Source: Falsirhodobacter sp. alg1
GTDB taxonomy: Bacteria; Pseudomonadota; Alphaproteobacteria; Rhodobacterales; Rhodobacteraceae
Reading direction: 5' to 3'
DNA: 64,000 nt
NCBI RefSeq assembly: GCF_000739715.2
Contig: NZ_BBJC02000004.1
Span: forward strand, 83,131-147,130
Shown one piece after another: positions 28,576 through 47,639 of this stretch. Numbering within the stretch: the first letter of the stretch is position 1; every line of letters starts with the position of its first letter. A program made the translations under genes and the position numbers. The notes beneath the pieces are model-generated. The model did not search any database, was not told the origin of the DNA, and saw only the letters and a program-made list of their open reading frames with translations.

Positions 28576-28986
28576 TCAGGGGCGGTGGTTCAGTGCATCT
28601 ATGATCCGGCAATCGGAAATCGTCGTCCCGCCATGACACTGGTCCCCGATCCGCCGCAATTCGTCGGCAAGGGCGTTGAGATCGGCAATCTTCTCTTCCA
28701 CGGCCGCAAGATGGGTACGGGTCAGGGTATCAACCTCGTCGCAGCAACGCTGGCGGTCCGACGACAGTGCGGCCAGCTCGGTAATCTGGTCCAGCGCAAA
28801 GCCCAGATCGCGGCACCGCCGGATGAAACGGAGCCTGTCCAGCTGCGCCTGCCCGTAGACACGGTAATTGGCAGCACTCCGCTCGGGCGGGGGCATCAGG
28901 CCGATGCTTTCATAGTAGCGGATGGTGACCACCTTTGTCCCTGTCAGCCGGGCAAGATCGCCAATGCGAAAAATCGTCTTGGACAT
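28576..28986 (-). CDS. MerR-family metal-responsive regulator
   Basis: 136 residues. HTH region FRIGDLARLTGTKVVTIRYY, ESIGLMPPPERSAANYRVY, then a coiled-coil dimerisation helix and a Cys-bearing C-terminus: RCCDEVDTL at the start of the long helix, then QCHGGTTISDCRIIDALN. The Cys pattern is that of the Zn/Cd/Pb-sensing MerR branch. Start ATG at 28986; the longer open frame would cross its own promoter. It is divergent from the cation-efflux gene, whose promoter carries the MerR site. Confidence 0.88.
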   Translation of the reverse strand: MSKTIFRIGDLARLTGTKVVTIRYYESIGLMPPPERSAANYRVYGQAQLDRLRFIRRCRDLGFALDQITELAALSSDRQRCCDEVDTLTRTHLAAVEEKIADLNALADELRRIGDQCHGGTTISDCRIIDALNHRP

Positions 28987-28988
28987 GG

Positions 28989-29019
28989 TTGACCCTATAG
29001 TTGCTATAGCCCTTAGATA
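28989..29019 (+). promoter_or_regulatory. MerR-controlled promoter of the cation-efflux gene
   Basis: TTGACC (28989-28994) and TAGATA (29014-29019) are 19 bp apart, the stretched spacing typical of MerR-activated promoters. The spacer holds the dyad CCCTATAG-TTG-CTATAG (28993-29009), close to known CadR/PbrR boxes. Confidence 0.78.
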
Positions 29020-29051
29020 TGGGAGCAACTGGAATACAAAGCGAGTCCCCC

Positions 29052-29696
29052 ATGCCCTGTTGCTCTTCTGATAGCTGTGCCTCCTCTGCCGGAACATCTG
29101 GCCGGTTCCGCCGTGTGTTGTGGATTGCCTTGGTGATCAATGGCGGAATGTTCGTGGCCGAAATTGCGGCGGGCTTGCTGTCGGGGTCGGCGGCACTTCA
29201 GGCCGATGCGCTCGATTTCCTTGCCGATGCCAGCAACTATGCAATCAGCCTGTTCGTGCTGGGCATGACGTTGCGGTGGCGGGCGGGCGCTGCATGGATC
29301 AAGGGGGCCTCCATGGGATTGTTCGGGCTGTGGGTGCTGGCCACGGTCGTCTGGCATATTGCCCATGGCTCGGTTCCCGATGCGCCGACGATGGGGATGA
29401 TCGGAACACTTGCACTGGTCATGAACCTGATCTGCCTGTTGTTGCTGATGGCGTTCCGCGATGGTGATGCCAATATGCGGTCGGTCTGGATCTGTTCGCG
29501 GAATGACGTAATCGCGAATGTCGCCGTTCTGCTGGCGGCGCTGGGCGTGTTCGGTACGGGAACGGGCTGGCCGGATTTCATCGTCGCCAGCCTGATGGCC
29601 GGATTGGCCCTGCAGGGGGCGGCCACCATCCTGCGGGATGCAACATGTGAATGGCGCAGCGCGGAGGACACCGCTGCCGTGCCGATCCTGCGATGA
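29052..29696 (+). CDS. Small CDF-type cation efflux protein
   Basis: About 214 residues, six membrane helices, without the C-terminal cytoplasmic domain of full-length CDF exporters. The N-terminus is Cys-rich (MPCCSSDSCASSAG), likely a metal-capture segment. The metal site in helix 2 is seen in LQADALDFLADASNYAISLF, and helix 5 has SRNDVIANVAVL. Start placed at 29052 because the promoter occupies the bases before; an earlier in-frame codon at 29019 lies in the -10. Probably exports Zn, Cd or a like ion under the adjacent MerR regulator. Confidence 0.83.
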   Translation: MPCCSSDSCASSAGTSGRFRRVLWIALVINGGMFVAEIAAGLLSGSAALQADALDFLADASNYAISLFVLGMTLRWRAGAAWIKGASMGLFGLWVLATVVWHIAHGSVPDAPTMGMIGTLALVMNLICLLLLMAFRDGDANMRSVWICSRNDVIANVAVLLAALGVFGTGTGWPDFIVASLMAGLALQGAATILRDATCEWRSAEDTAAVPILR

Positions 29697-29847
29697 TCTG
29701 ACGGCGAGGGGGGGCAGGACGCCTGTGCCCTTGTCCCATCAGGACTGGCTTGCGTTGCGGATGGTATCGGCTATCTGAACCACAAGCGGACCTTGTCCTG
29801 CTTCGGCAGGAGGCTGCTCTCGGTCAGATGTCTGCAAGGGGTGCCTC

Positions 29848-30858
29848 ATGATCAAGCGGCGGAATTTTCTGGCAGGGGCTGCGGCCCTGTCTGCTGCCCC
29901 CGGCGCAGTCCATGCCGCCGTGCCCACGGATGGGGATTGGGGTGCATGGTGCGCGGCCCATCTGCAGGACAGCGGGCGGGTCGTGGATGGGCCGCAGGGG
30001 CATATCAGCCATTCCGAGGGGCAGGGATACGGCCTGCTGCTGGCTCAGGCCCATGGGGATCGTGCCGCCTTCGAGGCGATGGAGGCATGGACCCGTACGC
30101 ATCTGGCTACCCGTCAGGATGCATTGATGAGCTGGAAGTGGGCACCTGGCGACGATCCGGTCTGGGTTGACTGGCACAATGCAACGGATGGCGACCTGTT
30201 CCGCGCATGGGCCCTGCTGCGGGCAGAGCGTGATTCCGGCTGGCAGGGATATCGCCAGAAAGCCATCGAGATCGCCCGCGACATCGCCGCGCTTTGCCTG
30301 GCTGCGGATCCGCGGGCAGCCGACCAGCCGCTGATCCTGCCGGGGGCCGAGGCTGCCGGCGATCCGGCAAAAGTCATCTTCAACCCCTCCTATGTCATGT
30401 CCCGCGCACTGCGAGAGCTGGGGGAGGCCGCTGGGGAACCGCGTCTGCTGCAGGCCGCAGACCACGGAGAGACGATGCTGGCCGAACTGGCAGCAACGGG
30501 TCTTTTGCCGAACTGGGTGGATGTGACGCCAGAGGGGTATGAGCCACCACGGGATCACGATCTGAAGTGGGGATATGATGCTTTGCGTATCCCGCTGTAT
30601 CTGTGCTGGTCGGGGCGGGCGGCCCATCCTGCGGTCGCCGTGGCGCTCCGTCTGATGGGCACCGATCCGGATCGGGTCACGGTCGAATCAACCCCTGACG
30701 GGAGGGTGCTGGAGGCGAACGACGGGGCCGGATTCCGGGCAATCCGGTCTTTTGCATCCTGCAGAACCGTGTCGGGGGCGATTTGCGGTGATTACTATGC
30801 CGACAGCCTGCTTCTGATGGCCAAAGTTGCGGCACGGGAAGCACAGTGCGAAAAATAA
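29848..30858 (+). CDS. Glycoside hydrolase family 8 endoglucanase (BcsZ-like)
   Basis: 336 residues. Tat-type signal KRRNFLAGAAALSAAPGAVH with cleavage near HAA. GH8 catalytic region: Glu57 in HISHSEGQGYGLLLA (proton donor) and D114/D116 in WHNATDGDLFRAW. A later PSYVMSRALREL and LKWGYDALRIPLYL are also GH8 motifs. Cellulose operons often contain such an enzyme, which trims nascent beta-glucan in the periplasm. Here it precedes a GT2 synthase cluster, separated by an 83-bp AT-rich gap. Start behind AAGGGG. Confidence 0.9.
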   Translation: MIKRRNFLAGAAALSAAPGAVHAAVPTDGDWGAWCAAHLQDSGRVVDGPQGHISHSEGQGYGLLLAQAHGDRAAFEAMEAWTRTHLATRQDALMSWKWAPGDDPVWVDWHNATDGDLFRAWALLRAERDSGWQGYRQKAIEIARDIAALCLAADPRAADQPLILPGAEAAGDPAKVIFNPSYVMSRALRELGEAAGEPRLLQAADHGETMLAELAATGLLPNWVDVTPEGYEPPRDHDLKWGYDALRIPLYLCWSGRAAHPAVAVALRLMGTDPDRVTVESTPDGRVLEANDGAGFRAIRSFASCRTVSGAICGDYYADSLLLMAKVAAREAQCEK

Positions 30859-30941
30859 AATACAGCGTAAGTTGCTTAAAAAAATAAAAAAACTACTGGT
30901 CCGAAAATCGTTCACCTGAACCGTTTTTTCAGCAGGCCATC

Positions 30942-32117
30942 ATGAAATACAGTAGACTGATCATCGGCATCGCCGCGGTCATTTTTGCACTATGGGTCAT
31001 CATCGGAGAGCAAATGTCCGGCGCCAGCGCCGATGCCGTTGTGAACGCTCCGGTCGTGACCGTCCGCGCCCCCGTGGCGGGAAATCTCGAACTGCCGACA
31101 CGGCAGTTGGGCGTATATGTACGCCAGGGCGAGGTGCTGGCCACCATCGCCGATCCCATCGTTGACCGCGTCCATCTGGATGACCTTCTGATGGAGGTCC
31201 AGCTGGAAAAAGCGGGCCGTGACCAGATCGATGCCTTGCTTACCGAAACGCGTGCGATCCGTGACAGCATGCAACAGCGTACCGACACCTATCGCGCCCA
31301 CCGGCTGGACGAACTGCGGGAGCGTCTGTCCCGCGCGGAAGCGCGTCTGCACATCCTGGAAAACGGCGGCGTGCCACAGACCGATGCGGAGCAACGCGCT
31401 GTGGATGCCGTTGCCGAGGATTCGGATGCCCTGCCGGCAGAGCCGCGCATCGCCTCTCTGGTGCTGGAACATGCGCGTGAGCGTGTGGCCGTTCTGCAGA
31501 TTGCTCTGGATGCCGCCGAACAGAACGTGTTTCTGGGCGACGGTTACAATGATGCGCCGAATGCCGAACAGCACATGGTGCAGCTGGACGGCGAAATTGC
31601 CGATATGGTGAGCCGCAAGGCCGAGGCGGATGCCCGCGTCGCCGCCGTGGAGGAGCGTGTGGACCGTGCCCGTGTCAGCGTGAACGCCCTGACCGGAGGA
31701 GAGTTGCGCTCTCCGGTGACCGGCACCTACTGGGAAATTCTGGAAGCAAGCGGCACGAATGTGCAGCGCGGCGACCCGTTGCTGCGTCTGGTCGATTGCA
31801 GCGCGACGGTCGTGACACTGTCGGTGACCGAGCGTGTGTATAACGGATTGACCATCGGCCAGAGCGCCAAGTTCCGTCTGGGCGGGGCATCGGATGTCTA
31901 TGACGCCACGGTCAGCCGTCTGGCAGGCAGCGGCGCGGAAACCGTGTATCGCAATCTGGCCGTGGCCCCCAGCAAGCGGCATCTGGAGCGGTATGACGTC
32001 ACGCTGATCGTGCCCGGTCTGCGGGACAAGGGCACAGACGGTTGTCTGATCGGCCGTACGGGCCGCGCCTTCTTCGATACGCGCCCGCTGGACGGGTTGC
32101 GGAACCTGTTCCACTAG
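30942..32117 (+). CDS. HlyD-like membrane-fusion protein of a beta-glucan synthase locus (BgsB-like)
   Basis: 391 residues. One N-terminal membrane helix (about 5-23, IIGIAAVIFALWVIIGE), a biotinyl-lipoyl-like half (VRAPVAGNLELPTRQLGVYV, about residues 42-75), a long coiled coil (about 80-240), the second lipoyl half (LRSPVTGTYWEILEASGTNV) and a beta-barrel end. One base separates it from the GT2 synthase gene. This B-then-A order resembles bgsBA of Sinorhizobium meliloti, which makes mixed-linkage beta-glucan; that link is inferred, since the fold alone fits many exporters. Confidence 0.8.
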   Translation: MKYSRLIIGIAAVIFALWVIIGEQMSGASADAVVNAPVVTVRAPVAGNLELPTRQLGVYVRQGEVLATIADPIVDRVHLDDLLMEVQLEKAGRDQIDALLTETRAIRDSMQQRTDTYRAHRLDELRERLSRAEARLHILENGGVPQTDAEQRAVDAVAEDSDALPAEPRIASLVLEHARERVAVLQIALDAAEQNVFLGDGYNDAPNAEQHMVQLDGEIADMVSRKAEADARVAAVEERVDRARVSVNALTGGELRSPVTGTYWEILEASGTNVQRGDPLLRLVDCSATVVTLSVTERVYNGLTIGQSAKFRLGGASDVYDATVSRLAGSGAETVYRNLAVAPSKRHLERYDVTLIVPGLRDKGTDGCLIGRTGRAFFDTRPLDGLRNLFH

Positions 32118-32118
32118 A

Positions 32119-34098
32119 ATGCCGGATATCTTCTATCAGGGATCATTGGGGTCCAGCGTCGTCCACCTTTTGTTGGTGTTCGGCGTTGGCCTTACCCTGC
32201 CATACTGGGTGCGGCCCGAAGATAACCGCCATCGCGCCTTTCTGCTGACGATCACCTTCCTGCTGGCCGTCAGATATATCTGGTGGCGGGGCACCGATAC
32301 GCTTGCCCCGGCCGGATTGACCATGGACATGCTGGCAAGCTGGTCGCTCTATGCCCTGGAAGTGCTGGCGATGATCGGCTCGATCAGCTCGTTCATGATC
32401 ATGTCCCGTATCCGTCTGCGCAGCGCCGAGGCGGACGAACATGCAGGCTGGTGGGGCGACAAGGAGCCCCGGGTGGCCATTTTGATTGCCACCTACAACG
32501 AAGAGCTGGATATCCTGGAGCGTAGTATCGTTGGTGCCCGCTCTCTGCGGCATACCAACAAGGAAGTCATCGTTCTGGATGACAGCCGCCGTGACTGGCT
32601 GCGCGATTACTGCGCAGAGCAGGGCGTCCGTTACATGCGGCGCCCCGACAACAAGGGGTCCAAGGCCGGCAACATCAACCATGCGCTGGACCGCCTGGCC
32701 GAAGAAGCCGTGCCGCCGGATTTCGTGGCTGTGCTGGATGCGGATTTCGTGCCGCATCGCGGCTTCCTGTCCCGCACCTTGGCGCTGTTCCACGATCCCA
32801 AGATCGGACTGGTGCAGACACCGCAGCATTTCTTCAATGCGGATCCGATCCAGCACAATCTGGGCATCGCCTCGTCCTATCCTGATGAACAGCGGTTCTT
32901 CTTCGATCAGATGCAGCCCTCGCGGGATGGTTGGGGAATGGCCATCTGCTGCGGCACATCCTCTATCGCGCGCTGGTCCGCCCTGCGCGAACTGGGGGGG
33001 CTGCCCACCGAAAGCGTGACCGAGGATTTCCTGCTGACACTGGCCTTGCAGGAGCGGGGTCTGCAAACCGCCTATCTTGCAGAACCGCTGACCGAGGGTC
33101 TCGCACCCGAGGGGTTGCAGGAATACGTGACGCAGCGGGCGCGGTGGTGCCTGGGGCTGATGCAGATCGCACGGTCCCGTCTGGGGCCATTCGGCAAGAA
33201 CAACCTGCGCTTTCGCGATCGCTGGGGCGTGGCGGATTCCGTTCTGTTCTGGATGACCAGCTTCACCTTTCGTCTGGCGGTCATCGTCTATCCGCTGCTG
33301 TACTGGTTCTTCAACATCGTGGTGGTGGATGCCCAGCTGACGGATGTCCTGGTCTATTTCGGGATGTTCTTCATCTGGTCGATCATGGTCTATCGGGCGA
33401 TCATGCCCGGCTTGCTGATGCCGGTCCTGCATGATGTGACACAGCTGATCGGGGCGGTTCCCATCACGCGGGCGGCCTTTACCGGCCTGTTCCGGCCAAA
33501 GGGGCATCCGTTCTCGGTTACGGCCAAGGGCGGGGATCGCAGCAAGGTCGTGGTGCAATGGAGCCTGATGGCGCCCTTCCTGATACTTCTGATCCTGACG
33601 GTCGTCGGCCTGTCATTGGGCATATTCCTTGACGGTTTTGCCTATAACGACGCAGGGGATGGCAAGTGGGTCGTGATTTTCTGGACGATCTACAACGTCG
33701 TTGTGCTGTCGATCACGGTATTGGCCTGCATCGAGCTGCCGCGTCGTGAAAGCCACATCGCCGATATGCCTGACCGCGGCGCGTTCATCACGGATGGCGA
33801 TATCCGCCGGCAGTGGATCAGCTCCTTGTCAATCGATCAGGCCCGTCTGCGTGGCAAGATCTACCCCGTCGGTACCGAAGGCACACTGCGTCTGAAGGAT
33901 GTGGGGGATGTGCCTGTACGGGTAACGACGCTGACACCTGACGGCAATATCGTGGAGCTGTTGCCCAACGCGGCACAGCGCGAGGCGCTGATGATCCGCT
34001 TCTATGCCGAGGGCGCGGCCCCGGGAACGGGACGCGCGCAGTTCTGGTCGGTTCTGGCCGGGCTCAGTCGTCGTCTCTCGGCTGGTGGTCATCACTGA
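32119..34098 (+). CDS. Cellulose-synthase-like GT2 processive beta-glucan synthase (BgsA-like)
   Basis: 659 residues. Three or so membrane helices (residues 14-100), then a cytosolic GT2 domain with every processive-synthase motif: DD154-155, DAD 207-209, TED 301-303 and QRARW 339-343. More helices follow (about 365-560), then a cytosolic tail of about 100 residues. The tail does not show the RxxxR and D/NxSxxG motifs of the BcsA PilZ domain. BgsA of S. meliloti likewise lacks PilZ yet binds c-di-GMP through its tail. The product (cellulose, mixed-linkage glucan or other) is inferred. The gene end overlaps the convergent sensor gene by 35 bp. Confidence 0.85.
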   Translation: MPDIFYQGSLGSSVVHLLLVFGVGLTLPYWVRPEDNRHRAFLLTITFLLAVRYIWWRGTDTLAPAGLTMDMLASWSLYALEVLAMIGSISSFMIMSRIRLRSAEADEHAGWWGDKEPRVAILIATYNEELDILERSIVGARSLRHTNKEVIVLDDSRRDWLRDYCAEQGVRYMRRPDNKGSKAGNINHALDRLAEEAVPPDFVAVLDADFVPHRGFLSRTLALFHDPKIGLVQTPQHFFNADPIQHNLGIASSYPDEQRFFFDQMQPSRDGWGMAICCGTSSIARWSALRELGGLPTESVTEDFLLTLALQERGLQTAYLAEPLTEGLAPEGLQEYVTQRARWCLGLMQIARSRLGPFGKNNLRFRDRWGVADSVLFWMTSFTFRLAVIVYPLLYWFFNIVVVDAQLTDVLVYFGMFFIWSIMVYRAIMPGLLMPVLHDVTQLIGAVPITRAAFTGLFRPKGHPFSVTAKGGDRSKVVVQWSLMAPFLILLILTVVGLSLGIFLDGFAYNDAGDGKWVVIFWTIYNVVVLSITVLACIELPRRESHIADMPDRGAFITDGDIRRQWISSLSIDQARLRGKIYPVGTEGTLRLKDVGDVPVRVTTLTPDGNIVELLPNAAQREALMIRFYAEGAAPGTGRAQFWSVLAGLSRRLSAGGHH

Positions 34099-35170
34099 CC
34101 CGGTCCTGCTGGAGGTGCAGCAATGCGACCGACAGCAGTGCCGCTTCGCGGGTGGTTGATGAGTTTTCAGGGTATTCCTGCGAACCATTGGCCACGCGTG
34201 AGGCCAGCACCGACAGGCGTGTCAGCGGGTCGATCACGAATTTCAGGAACAGCAGGGTAACCGCCGCGATCAGCGCAAGGCAGATCGCCAATGCGTACCA
34301 CGCCCCGTTCCGCGCCAGATCCAGACCGATCGTTAGCTTGTCCGCATCCAGCCTGCCGACCATGCGCCAGCCGAAATCGGGCAGTTCGCCATAGGTCACT
34401 TCTGGCACCAGCGACGAGAAATATTCCTGACCATCGGGCCATATCTCGCGCCCGGCGGTCTGCACCCCGGCCTGTGCCGCACGCACGATCTTCAGCTCTG
34501 CCTGATCGGGCATGTCCTCGGTCGTCGAGGCCGATACTTCGCCGTTCTGGTTCAGCAGGAACAGGTCGATCCCGAAAGTATCGGAAGCCTCGGCCAGATA
34601 GCGGTTCAGCCAGGACGCATTGATATGCATGCCAAGCACGCCGATCAGATCACCCTTGGCATTGGTGACAGGGCGGGCCAGATCGAAGAAGCGCGGGGGG
34701 GCGCCATCCGTGGCCAGCAGTTGCGCCAGCAGCTTGGCATCATGAACATCGCCGGCATAACCGTTTGCCAGACCATTCTTGAACCACGGCCGTTCGCCCA
34801 CGTTCTGGCCGATCAGCATCTTGTCGGTGGCGGCAACAACCTCACCGCTCAGATCGGCAAAGCCGATCCATGATACACGCTGGCCATTTCCCGAGGCACC
34901 GCTAAGGAAATAGCTCATCTCATCCTGCGTCATGCCATCAAGCTTGCCGGACAGGGCCACAAGGTTGCTCCAGTCGCGGTTCAGGGATCGTGCCAGATCC
35001 TGCGCGATGGCTGCAGTGCGGAAGCGGACTGCATAATCCAGCGTACTGTCGGTGATCCGGTCGCTTTTCAGCCAGGCGAATGCGCCGAAAGTGGCGGTGA
35101 TGATCAGCAGCACGATCAGGATAAGCGCCTGGATCGCGCTTCGCAGGGTTGTTTTGGGAAGGACTTCCAT
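34064..35170 (-). CDS. dCache-type membrane sensor with HAMP but no output domain
   Basis: 368 residues. Membrane helix at about 11-33, a large periplasmic double-Cache domain (about 35-285; WIGFADLSGEVVAATDKMLI, GERPWFKNGL, FDLARPVTNAKGDLIGVLGM), second helix 291-313, then a HAMP-like segment (DPLTRLSVLASRVANGS) and the protein ends near 368. Full-length relatives would carry a GGDEF, kinase or MCP domain here; none follows in any frame because the gene runs into the synthase gene. It has a 6-bp gap to the beta-barrel gene upstream. It may sense through a partner. Confidence 0.82.
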   Translation of the reverse strand: MEVLPKTTLRSAIQALILIVLLIITATFGAFAWLKSDRITDSTLDYAVRFRTAAIAQDLARSLNRDWSNLVALSGKLDGMTQDEMSYFLSGASGNGQRVSWIGFADLSGEVVAATDKMLIGQNVGERPWFKNGLANGYAGDVHDAKLLAQLLATDGAPPRFFDLARPVTNAKGDLIGVLGMHINASWLNRYLAEASDTFGIDLFLLNQNGEVSASTTEDMPDQAELKIVRAAQAGVQTAGREIWPDGQEYFSSLVPEVTYGELPDFGWRMVGRLDADKLTIGLDLARNGAWYALAICLALIAAVTLLFLKFVIDPLTRLSVLASRVANGSQEYPENSSTTREAALLSVALLHLQQDRVSDDHQPRDDD

Positions 35171-35176
35171 GGTGCC

Positions 35177-35758
35177 TCAGAAAGTGTTGAAGGAAAAACC
35201 GATGAAGTATTCTTTGGCATCCGTCTTGTAGCCTGTGCGCAGGCTTACAGGGGTGCCGGTGAACCGCTTCTGCAGGGCGATCGTGGTCTCGCTGTAGCTT
35301 TCGCTGCCCCCGCTGGACAGTTCGATCCCGAATCCGCTGTCGGCAAAGCTGATCTGGCCCAGAACGAACCATGCGTCATAGATCGTGCTGACCTGCGCCA
35401 GCCCGTATACGCCGCCGAATCCGGTGGTCACATAGCGATCCAGAGAGGCAAGGGCACCGATGTCATATTCGGTGTCATCATCATCGGGGTTCTCGAAGCC
35501 GATGGTCGGCCCGACATGTGCCGTAACGATCCCTGCCAGCGGAACGCCATAGGTGACCTGTACGCCCCCTGACCGCCCGCCATCATATCGGGTGGCATTG
35601 CCGCCAAAGCTCCATGCATCGCGCGACACCGCGCCGACAAAGCTGCGCGTGTCCTTGGCAATATCCGATTGCACGAACTCGCCATCGGCAAGGGCCGGAG
35701 ATGCAAGCATCGCAAGTGAAAAGAAGACACCGCTGGCGGTGAATCGGGTGGTGGGCAA
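35177..35758 (-). CDS. Predicted outer-membrane beta-barrel protein (BcsS-like?)
   Basis: 193 residues. Signal peptide (FTASGVFFSLAMLASPALAD), then alternating amphipathic strands and a C-terminal phenylalanine (GFSFNTF), the usual end of an outer-membrane barrel. Size and pattern (FGGNATRYDGGRSGGVQVTY, GPTIGFEN) recall BcsS-type proteins of alphaproteobacterial cellulose loci, though I cannot prove this. It is co-transcribed with the dCache gene and may serve export or retention of the glucan. Confidence 0.68.
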   Translation of the reverse strand: MPTTRFTASGVFFSLAMLASPALADGEFVQSDIAKDTRSFVGAVSRDAWSFGGNATRYDGGRSGGVQVTYGVPLAGIVTAHVGPTIGFENPDDDDTEYDIGALASLDRYVTTGFGGVYGLAQVSTIYDAWFVLGQISFADSGFGIELSSGGSESYSETTIALQKRFTGTPVSLRTGYKTDAKEYFIGFSFNTF

Positions 35759-36138
35759 GACGGTTTCTCCGAGATCTCAGTGGGCGCAGGCCGTGCGCCT
35801 TTCAGCCGCAGCACAGCGCTAATAAATGAATTCTCGCAAGAGGTTGCCGCGGATTATTTTGCAGCGTCACCCAAGCGCAACGCCCACTCCTGCCGTGATC
35901 CAGAAAGGGCGGGTGTGCGGGGTGCCGGGGGAAGTGGATTGCCCCCGTCCAGAGGTGCAAGCGGCAAGGCGGATACGGAACTGCACGGGTCATTTGCCAT
36001 GACAGAAACTTGTCCGGTTTCGGGGGAATTGTTTATGGCCGGGCGATCCATTCCGTTAAAGACTGATGGTTCTGTATATCTCGTAATGTCTTCGCATGGT
36101 CTTGCCTTGCGGTCTTTTGCCAATGATTGGATGGATTG
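35759..36138. other. 380-bp gap between the barrel gene and the DoxX-like gene
   Basis: No gene supported. A frame beginning at 36001 gives 46 residues without homology or a good ribosome site, and overlaps the next start. A GC-rich stretch at about 35906-35980 has many G-runs but no convincing hairpin with a T-run. Promoters for both flanking genes should be here but none stands out. Confidence 0.5.
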
Positions 36139-36552
36139 ATGCCCGATACCAGAATCCCGGTGGCGCTGCTTATCATGCGTCTGACAATCGCCGCGTTTTT
36201 TGCCGCGTGGAGCTCGCTGAAATTCTATCGACCCGAATGGTTCGAAAATGTCTTCAAGAACGTCTACGGTCTGGAATTCGCGTCGCAGAACATGTCGTGG
36301 GTCGTCGGCCTGATCCAGATGCTACTGGTTCTTCTGTTCGTTATCGGGTTTTTGCGGACCTATACCTATGGTGCGATTGCCTTGATGCTTTGCGCAGGCG
36401 TTGTCGGTTCCATTCCTTCGCTGATGGAATACACCACCTATCCGAATAACCTTATGTGGGCGGGTGTGCCGACTCTGGGGGCGGCGATTTCGCTGTTTCT
36501 TTTGCGCGATTACGACCGGTACACGGTTGATGGGCAACGCCGCAAAGCGTGA
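36139..36552 (+). CDS. DoxX-family-like membrane protein
   Basis: 137 residues and four membrane helices. The N-terminal helix with RLTIAAFFAAWSSLKFYRPE and the following VYGLEFASQNMSWVVGLIQM pattern is similar to the DoxX/DoxD family. Start ATG at 36139. The function of these small proteins is mostly unclear; several are tied to oxidative stress or to quinone chemistry. Same strand as the next outer-membrane gene, 208 bp away. Confidence 0.68.
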   Translation: MPDTRIPVALLIMRLTIAAFFAAWSSLKFYRPEWFENVFKNVYGLEFASQNMSWVVGLIQMLLVLLFVIGFLRTYTYGAIALMLCAGVVGSIPSLMEYTTYPNNLMWAGVPTLGAAISLFLLRDYDRYTVDGQRRKA

Positions 36553-46405: not shown

Positions 46406-46418
46406 TGCTGCTTCATAG

Positions 46419-46465
46419 AACCGTCACAACGGCTTCCTGGCGTGACGGGGATACCCAACGGAGCA
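46419..46465 (+). ncRNA. SAM/SAH riboswitch upstream of metK
   Basis: A 7-bp helix CCGTCAC (46421-46427) / GTGACGG (46442-46448) encloses the conserved loop AACGGCTTCCTGGC; GGAGCA follows at 46460-46465. This loop and tail match the conserved core of the SAM/SAH riboswitch class I remember from Rhodobacterales metK leaders. In that class the loop CTTCC pairs with the GGAG that is also the metK ribosome site, so ligand binding blocks translation. Distance from GGAG to ATG is 9 nt. Confidence 0.9.
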
Positions 46466-46472
46466 CTTCCCC

Positions 46473-47639
46473 ATGTCGCGTAAAGACTACATTTTTACAT
46501 CCGAATCTGTGTCGGAGGGCCACCCCGATAAGGTTTGCGACCGCATTTCCGATGCGATCCTCGATGCCTTCCTGACGCAGGAGCCGATGGCACGCGTTGC
46601 CTGCGAAACCTTTGCCACCACCAATCAGGTGGTCGTGGGGGGTGAGGTCGGCCTGTCCGATCCGGTTCTTCTGGATGAATATATGGGCCGTATCGAGGGC
46701 ATTGTCCGCGACTGCGTCAAGGATATCGGGTACGAACAGGACAAGTTCCACTGGAACACCCTGAATGTCCTGAACCTGCTGCACCCGCAATCCGCCCATA
46801 TCTCCCAAGGGGTCGACCGGGACGGTGCGGGCGATCAGGGCATCATGTTCGGCCATGCGATCAACGAGACGGACGCGCTTATGCCCGCGCCGATCCATTA
46901 TTCCCATGCCATCCTTCGCCGCCTGGCCGAAGCGCGGAAATCGGGGGCCGAGCCGACGCTGGGGCCGGATGCAAAATCGCAGCTTTCGTTGCGCTACGAG
47001 AATGGCAAACCGGTCGAGGTCACGTCGCTGGTGCTTTCGACCCAGCATCTGCATGAACACCAGACGTCGGACGATATTCGCGGCATCATCGAACCCTATA
47101 TCCGCGAAGTGCTGCCCGCAGGCTGGCTGACCGACAAGACCGAATGGTGGGTGAACCCCACGGGTACGTTCGTCATCGGCGGACCGGATGGCGATGCGGG
47201 GCTGACTGGCCGCAAGATCATCGTGGATACCTATGGCGGTGCGGCACCGCATGGCGGCGGCGCATTCTCGGGCAAGGATCCGACCAAGGTTGACCGGTCG
47301 GCCGCTTATGCGGCACGCTATCTTGCGAAGAACGTCGTTGCGGCAGGCTTGGCCGAGCGGTGCACGATCCAGATTTCCTATGCGATCGGTGTGGCAAAGC
47401 CGCTTTCGGTCTATGTGGATACCTATGGCACCGGCAGTGTCGATCCGGCGGCAATCGAGGCGGCCATTCCGCGTGTGATGGATCTGTCGCCCCGCGGCAT
47501 CCGTGAGCATCTGGAACTGAACCGTCCGATCTATGCGCGTACGGCGGCCTATGGCCACTTCGGCCGTGCCCCCGAAGCCGATGGCGGCTTCAGCTGGGAA
47601 CGGACCGACCTGGCAAAGGCGCTGGCTGCGGCATTGTAA
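46473..47639 (+). CDS. metK: S-adenosylmethionine synthetase
   Basis: 388 residues. Makes SAM from methionine and ATP. Family motifs: [20 protein letters not shown] at the N-terminus, the [10 protein letters not shown] segment and the P-loop-like [16 protein letters not shown]. Start ATG at 46473, with its ribosome site held in the SAM/SAH riboswitch, giving product feedback. It is followed by a clear terminator. Confidence 0.96.

Follow-up and report, generated by a model that had tools for sequence, protein, structure and literature searches.

A separate clade of BcsA-related beta-glucan synthases and an output-less dCache-HAMP sensor that may control it directly

The locus and the closest described systems

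Control of cellulose-like synthases is textbook cyclic di-GMP (c-di-GMP) signalling. Here we describe a five-gene locus at positions 29848-35758 of a 64,000-nucleotide stretch of Falsirhodobacter sp. alg1 DNA (the window, meaning the whole stretch analysed), which combines a beta-glucan synthase of glycosyltransferase family 2 (GT2) with a membrane sensor. In the reading that we put forward, and that we hold to be evenly poised between true and false, the synthase belongs to a separate BcsA-related clade stripped of its c-di-GMP motifs and is controlled directly by the sensor, which has no output domain of its own.

The BcsA-BcsB cellulose synthase shares with the window protein the overall fold, including a PilZ-like domain, and also has a GH8 partner (BcsZ). 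However, the window genome is without BcsB, the PilZ motifs have been lost from the window synthase, and positions 276/298/299/302 read Q/Q/R/F instead of the H/N/E/Y of R. sphaeroides BcsA. The BgsB-BgsA pair of S. meliloti and Rhizobium etli resembles the locus in having an HlyD gene directly before a BcsA-like GT2 gene, no BcsB or BcsC, an FxVTxK loop and no PilZ motifs. BgsA nevertheless falls in a separate clade; its c-di-GMP residues R599 and H615 face alignment gaps in the window synthase, with no counterpart, and residues 412/477/480 are P/T/G in BgsA versus D/D/Q in the window clade. In the two BgsBA loci examined, dCache-HAMP, GH8 and barrel genes were not found beside GT2. A diguanylate cyclase gene lies just upstream of the S. 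meliloti pair, on the opposite strand (L106, 3439-4464), in contrast with the output-less sensor of our locus; this cyclase is annotated as sensor domain-containing and, by eye, is GAF-like and cytoplasmic.

Similarly, the CrdA-CrdS-CrdC system of Agrobacterium combines an HlyD-like protein, a GT2 and a third exported protein. CrdS, however, forms a separate clade with H/E/H at 412/477/480, the GH8 model finds no match in the third protein of the curdlan locus, and the sensor model none anywhere in that locus. The cyanobacterial XcsA-XcsB-XcsC system comprises a synthase, an HlyD-like protein and an endoglucanase, with TolC as the proposed exit, but the PilZ domain of XcsA is activated by c-di-GMP, and the consulted parts of the source mention no output-less sensor (PMC12430437). 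In literature searches, which covered open-licence papers only, we did not find the unit of the window described.

The locus comprises five open reading frames (ORFs), three on the forward strand (GH8, HlyD, GT2) followed by two on the reverse strand (dCache protein, barrel):

29848..30858, + strand: GH8 endoglucanase-like protein, predicted periplasmic trimming enzyme (PF01270, 1.9e-41)
30942..32117, + strand: HlyD-type membrane-fusion protein, BgsB-like (HlyD_3, 3.3e-14)
32119..34098, + strand: GT2 beta-glucan synthase (Pfam GT2 families); membrane/catalytic part at residues 1-536, PilZ-derived C-terminal domain at about 541-659
33739..34098, + strand: PilZ-derived C-terminal domain of the synthase, with six strands followed by helices; RxxxR and DxSxxG lost
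34064..35170, - strand: dCache-transmembrane-HAMP sensor, ending after HAMP, no output domain (dCache_1, 2.1e-14)
35177..35758, - strand: small outer-membrane beta-barrel with TTG start and signal peptide, modelled by AlphaFold2 (AF2) with 12 strands in a KdgM/NanC-like porin fold

A single base pair separates the HlyD and GT2 genes and 6 bp separate the barrel and sensor genes, whereas the GT2 and sensor genes share 35 bp at their 3' ends. An earlier note, made from the sequence alone, had given the same five genes at 29848-35758 in these orientations, and the ORFs and Pfam matches confirm it, the barrel being the one protein without a Pfam match. What that reading missed is that the sensor ends at HAMP, and that the synthase has a PilZ-like C-terminal domain devoid of c-di-GMP motifs, which were lost after the sensor had arrived.

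The synthase clade and its companion genes

The GT2 translation contains the motifs DD, DAD, TED and QRARW and a gating loop, FSVTAK; an alignment of 59 clade members shows their key residues to be invariant. The protein is a processive-type GT2 with intact catalytic motifs, as the earlier note had stated of the latter, and an intact gating loop. BcsA chains are the nearest PDB sequences, and the AF2 model (predicted local distance difference test score, pLDDT, 87.7) superposed on c-di-GMP-bound BcsA (4p00) over residues 8-655, with Z 36.5, 631 aligned residues and a root-mean-square deviation of 3.3. Identity of the protein with BcsA was ruled out, because it scores 366.9 bits against TIGR03030 (BcsA), below the NCBIfam cut-off of 699.1, the genome has no BcsB and the PilZ motifs are absent. 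In the genome (G000; 2.92 Mb, 154 contigs), this is the single close GT2 of its family, the next match having an E of 3e-5. BcsB (PF03170) gave no match in the genome at E 0.001, which bears out the reported absence of bcsB; BcsC was not searched with a model of its own.

Orthology with BgsA or CrdS was also rejected, since both fall outside the window clade in the trees, which contain long branches and resolve only weakly how BgsA, CrdS and this clade branched from one another. The BgsA rows (L106 from S. meliloti and L007 from R. phaseoli, 79% similar to each other) were assigned by similarity and gene order, as their names are absent from the records (PMC9495663, consulted in part), and the CrdS row was likewise identified from the CrdA-CrdS-CrdC gene order instead of a name. 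Between the window GT2 and the BgsA orthologue of R. phaseoli, identity is 36.8%. Of the proposal that the locus is a streamlined bgsBA, the compact unit with a sensor is therefore retained, whereas descent from bgsBA is not. The GT2 does not cluster firmly with BcsA or with a hyaluronan/chitin branch either.

According to the consulted portion of one study, positions 276, 298, 299 and 302 of R. sphaeroides BcsA are linked to linkage choice or differentially conserved (PMC6821405). Clade members carry Q/Q/R/F at these positions in 92/92 rows, the letters of CrdS and BgsA rather than those of the five cellulose synthases compared; this speaks against plain cellulose without fixing the linkage. 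At the channel entrance, positions 412, 477 and 480 are occupied by clade-specific D (92/92), D (92/92) and Q (90/92). The probable product is a beta-glucan distinct from plain cellulose. A mixed-linkage product like that of BgsBA, as had been suggested, is not established, R599 and H615 being absent and the channel-entrance residues different.

An 11-row GT2 alignment was used to scan named genome contigs for relatives, and the best 80 of at least 579 confirmed were analysed. By family models, HlyD lay beside GT2 in 79/80 of these closest loci, the sensor in 74/80 (a statement on the closest loci only, given how they were chosen), the barrel in 29/80 and GH8 in 27/80. The sensor was present in 37/40 loci of Rhodobacterales, 27/28 of Hyphomicrobiales, 3/3 of Rhodospirillales, 5/5 of Acetobacterales and 2/4 unassigned loci. 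GH8 and the barrel are mainly Rhodobacterales accessories (26/40 and 28/40, respectively, against 1/40 each in the other loci). Thus, the compact HlyD-GT2 unit with its own sensor and outer-membrane protein, as first described, is kept together in other genomes, and the flanking genes are conserved elsewhere. With respect to GT2, the sensor gene was found opposite-downstream in 39, same-downstream in 19, same-upstream in 10 and opposite-upstream in 6 loci (n = 74), with at least nine changes of arrangement on the GT2 tree. It was present in 9/10 plasmid loci with a clade GT2, the exception being L001.

The unit is uncommon overall. In an even draw of 385 alphaproteobacterial genomes, with five candidates scored per genome and a clade GT2 defined by a score above 900 bits, only two had one, including the window's own. 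Both have the sensor adjoining, although its frame is broken in one (G352): at 6933-8126 of L121 the sensor beside GT2 is split over two frames, the relatives L206 and L207 having a single frame. Plasmid At of Agrobacterium fabrum C58 (L113, 12158-16449) has the sensor, GT2 and HlyD genes. Atu5091, which may correspond to one of these three genes, is listed as RcdB, a 'curdlan synthesis protein', changed in a pdhS2 mutant and found in detergent-resistant membranes, according to the consulted parts of two papers (PMC7003649, PMC8656257).

These distributions bear on a plainer explanation, namely that this is an ordinary cellulose or mixed-linkage glucan locus whose neighbours are plasmid hitchhikers. 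Several loci do lie on plasmids, and public annotation names the GT2 a cellulose synthase or glycosyltransferase. However, the sensor is co-located in those 74 loci across four arrangements, and the four filter positions carry the CrdS/BgsA letters in every row. Moreover, in four genomes of one family that carry both GT2 types (G700, G707, G745, G761) no sensor adjoins the PilZ-intact type; in three of them one lies next to the other GT2, the fourth being cut by a contig end. We consider this explanation very improbable.

A synthase without c-di-GMP motifs and a sensor without output

In the AF2 model, the C-terminal domain of the synthase consists of six strands plus helices and superposes on BcsA up to residue 655, and from this alignment with the c-di-GMP-bound structure we conclude that the PilZ fold is kept. 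At E 0.05, Pfam PilZ matched 6/59 clade members and did not match the window protein. The motif pair RxxxR and DxSxxG was found in 0/86 derived rows (window included), of which 80/86 have the sensor within the stretch available. Outside the clade, both motifs occurred in 9/12 sensorless non-BcsA rows, the three lacking them being BgsA (2) and CrdS, and in 4/4 Azospirillaceae-type rows of the first sample, which do have the sensor.

For a further sample, two more families were searched, with few candidates scored per genome, and 37 further GT2 places were read; L200, L203, L212 and L213 among these repeat L095, L096, L092 and L094. The nearest sensorless relatives (642-729 bits) had both motifs in 12/12 cases, one motif being called by eye (the RxxxR of L218, missed by the search anchor). 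Both motifs and the sensor were found in 11/11 Azospirillaceae-type places (two repeats), while derived places had both motifs in 0/4 (two repeats) and the sensor in 3/4, the fourth being cut by a contig end. Ten distant relatives (458-530 bits) had neither the sensor nor the motif pair.

On the enlarged GT2 tree, the nearest sister groups of the sensor-bearing clade were L097, a group of 14 and L208 (16/16 with both motifs and no sensor); next came the Azospirillaceae-type clade, with 15 rows having sensor and motifs (two repeats; the sensor frame of L121 is broken), and then the derived clade. The sensorless rows had been sorted into motif-bearing and motif-less after the motifs were seen, and the enlarged tree bears out the three nearest sister groups. 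The sensor was gained once on this tree, a count that omits seven derived rows whose available stretch shows no sensor. L069 was excluded from the GT2 trees (incomplete sequence), and L109, 28% filled in the first tree, was dropped from later ones. The trees support a sequence of events in which the sensor joined the clade once, with some later losses, and the PilZ motifs were lost afterwards while the PilZ fold was kept.

The window sensor consists of a dCache domain, transmembrane helices and HAMP; the HAMP was seen by alignment with relatives, dCache_1 being the only Pfam match. Among 81 sensor relatives, Pfam at E 0.05 found dCache_1 in 78/81 and HAMP in 51/81, and the HAMP hallmark positions P315, L319 and E342 are invariant or nearly so. 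The residues following the sensor profile number at most 57 in 74/74 loci, a tail too short for a cyclase or kinase domain, which would ordinarily start at this point. The sensor had no sequence relatives in the PDB at E 0.1, and an amino-acid-type dCache motif was not seen by eye.

Among the 385 genomes, again with five candidates scored in each, 23 sensor relatives (E 1e-30) came from genomes without a clade GT2, of which 22/23 lie in frames of 555-1200 residues; the remaining one (G179) is a short frame that looks broken, with an overlapping second frame. Output domains were identified in ten scanned relatives, GGDEF in seven and histidine kinase in three. On the sensor tree, which included 21/23 of these relatives (G179 and G019:C4 were left out), the 21 sequences cluster together next to the Azospirillum sensors, and a single switch separates them from the other 81, which are 80 GT2-associated sensors and the orphan L015. 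L015 (7980-9074), encoded on a Salipiger plasmid, is an output-less sensor without a GT2 in the sequence read around it, and was counted with the GT2-associated sensors. A second candidate for an output-less sensor away from GT2, L138 (tail 28), was rejected since it has histidine-kinase, receiver and Hpt domains.

Six of the 80 closest loci are sensorless (L026, L056, L070, L091, L092, L097). The genome of L026 has a short-frame sensor copy (362 residues) elsewhere, L092 is cut by a contig end, and L092 and L097 both lie on short contigs; at E 1e-15 no sensor relative was found in the genomes of L056, L070, L091 and L097. The HlyD frame is also short in L056 and L070. L091, which has the clade GT2 and HlyD without the sensor, comes from a Verrucomicrobiota (Opitutae) metagenome-assembled genome and is nested among alphaproteobacterial sequences, reflecting either transfer or a binning error.

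Possible modes of control

The sensor has lost its output and the synthase its c-di-GMP motifs, and this double loss suggests a direct action of HAMP on the domain derived from PilZ. A periplasmic ligand would bind the Cache domain, HAMP would pass the change to the PilZ-derived domain, and the latter would free the gating loop, permitting synthesis from UDP-glucose. HlyD might then guide the chain through the periplasm to a channel, either of TolC type or the small barrel, and GH8 would trim the glucan. In such a scheme a membrane sensor acting on the enzyme itself would have replaced the two-step relay of cyclase, c-di-GMP and PilZ.

The main alternative is that the synthase is still switched on by c-di-GMP, at a non-canonical C-terminal site, and that the dCache-HAMP protein is an adaptor, either pairing with a diguanylate cyclase or adjusting how active it is. 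A precedent is BgsA, which lost its PilZ motifs independently and uses other residues to bind c-di-GMP, according to the consulted part of the source (PMC5567048). The window genome encodes four GGDEF domains and no protein matching PilZ at E 0.001, GGDEF genes occur within the stretches of 11 sensor-bearing loci, and the sensor family has cyclases and kinases among its relatives. Conversely, the two BgsA c-di-GMP residues are without counterpart, no GGDEF-like ORF was detected in the 18 kb around the window locus (with a GGDEF model built from two sequences), and the loss of the PilZ motifs comes after the gain of the sensor in the tree. We regard this as a serious rival, albeit an unlikely one, and direct control as the simplest reading.

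Several observations nonetheless weigh against direct control. Given the BgsA precedent, loss of the motifs does not prove loss of binding, and the four GGDEF domains of the genome and the GGDEF genes near the 11 sensor-bearing loci belong here as well. The motifs can also go without this sensor, since BgsA, CrdS and the ten distant relatives have neither. The derived loci L056, L070 and L091 lack any sensor relative in their genomes (E 1e-15), and the sensor state changes five times on the GT2 tree when five sensorless derived rows and the other sensorless rows are counted.

Distance correlations across the 74 loci, with the GT2 catalytic part held constant, gave a mixed picture. Distances in the GT2 C-terminal domain correlated with those in HAMP (0.33) and not with those in Cache (-0.03), whereas HlyD distances showed a stronger correlation with Cache (0.53) than with HAMP (0.19), and both contrasts survived locus resampling and removal of 10 divergent rows. 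The first sensor helix, however, also correlated with the GT2 C-terminal domain (0.29), and without the 10 divergent rows this domain correlated with HlyD (0.32) nearly as with HAMP (0.36). These correlations speak for the direct reading, but being weak and not clean they give a hint of contact between HAMP and the synthase, and no proof.

The Cache-HlyD correlation might instead point to a role for the sensor in the periplasm, where Cache would read the glucan or its fragments, or touch HlyD, and so gate export rather than polymerisation. The correlation, at 0.43 after removal of the 10 divergent rows, persists, and GH8 would release oligosaccharides that Cache could sense. Yet it may reflect shared rates, and a purely periplasmic function would have no need of HAMP hallmark positions that are near-invariant in 81 sensors. 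We think such a role improbable.

Taken further, direct control by the sensor would make this a synthase regulated without a second messenger, in which a dCache-HAMP receptor presses on a former c-di-GMP domain, the Azospirillaceae-type clade represents a halfway stage with both inputs, and the glucan linkage may be undescribed; this extended picture we offer tentatively, as somewhat short of an even chance. The clade appears to have dropped c-di-GMP at both ends and yet kept a membrane sensor. The states before, during and after are all represented by living lineages, which makes the shortening of a second-messenger circuit to direct receptor control testable. It would also add a further group of probably non-cellulose beta-glucan synthases, with a channel signature of their own and a candidate outer-membrane exit, in marine, soil and plant-associated bacteria. 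A ligand-controlled synthase could serve in making glucans.

Accessory proteins and neighbouring genes

The AF2 model of the barrel (pLDDT 91.3) has 12 strands and a signal helix, and the protein models as a 12-stranded KdgM/NanC-like porin fold. Its best structural matches were VhGalP (Z 16.6), PcoB (15.8), KdgM (15.8) and NanC (15.4), other barrels giving at most 13.9. The KdgM/NanC porins are likewise small 12-stranded barrels, but sequence identity is just 6-16%, and the copper transporter PcoB lies within 1 Z. Assignment of the barrel to BcsS was not supported: the BcsS profile (PF17036) matched 2/33 barrel members weakly (best E 0.062), and hhalign against one BcsS-family protein gave a probability of 1.4%. 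The barrel may act as an exit for oligosaccharides or the chain; outer-membrane efflux (OEP, TolC-type) proteins are also encoded, with matches in three frames of the genome.

The GH8 protein has a Tat-type signal peptide by eye (KRRNFLAG). Its E57 and D244, which we take to be the catalytic acid and base after BcsZ, are invariant in the four GH8 proteins aligned, in keeping with the intact Glu/Asp pair noted earlier. In Jannaschia sp. W003 (L013, 5313-6542) the GH8 gene, located between sensor and barrel, is split over two ORFs. The HlyD family model scored 218 bits with the BgsB-type protein of S. meliloti and 75 bits with the CrdA-type protein, and the BgsB-type HlyD gene lies directly upstream of GT2.

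No promoter-like sites were found in 29500-36200, and terminator-like sites were not above those of shuffled sequence. Upstream of the locus, at 28576-29696, a divergent MerR-type regulator (CadR/PbrR-like) gene and a short cation-efflux (CDF) gene overlap at their 5' ends. Farther away in the window, an S-adenosylmethionine/S-adenosylhomocysteine (SAM/SAH) riboswitch at 46418-46465 directly precedes the gene for S-adenosylmethionine synthetase (46473-47639).

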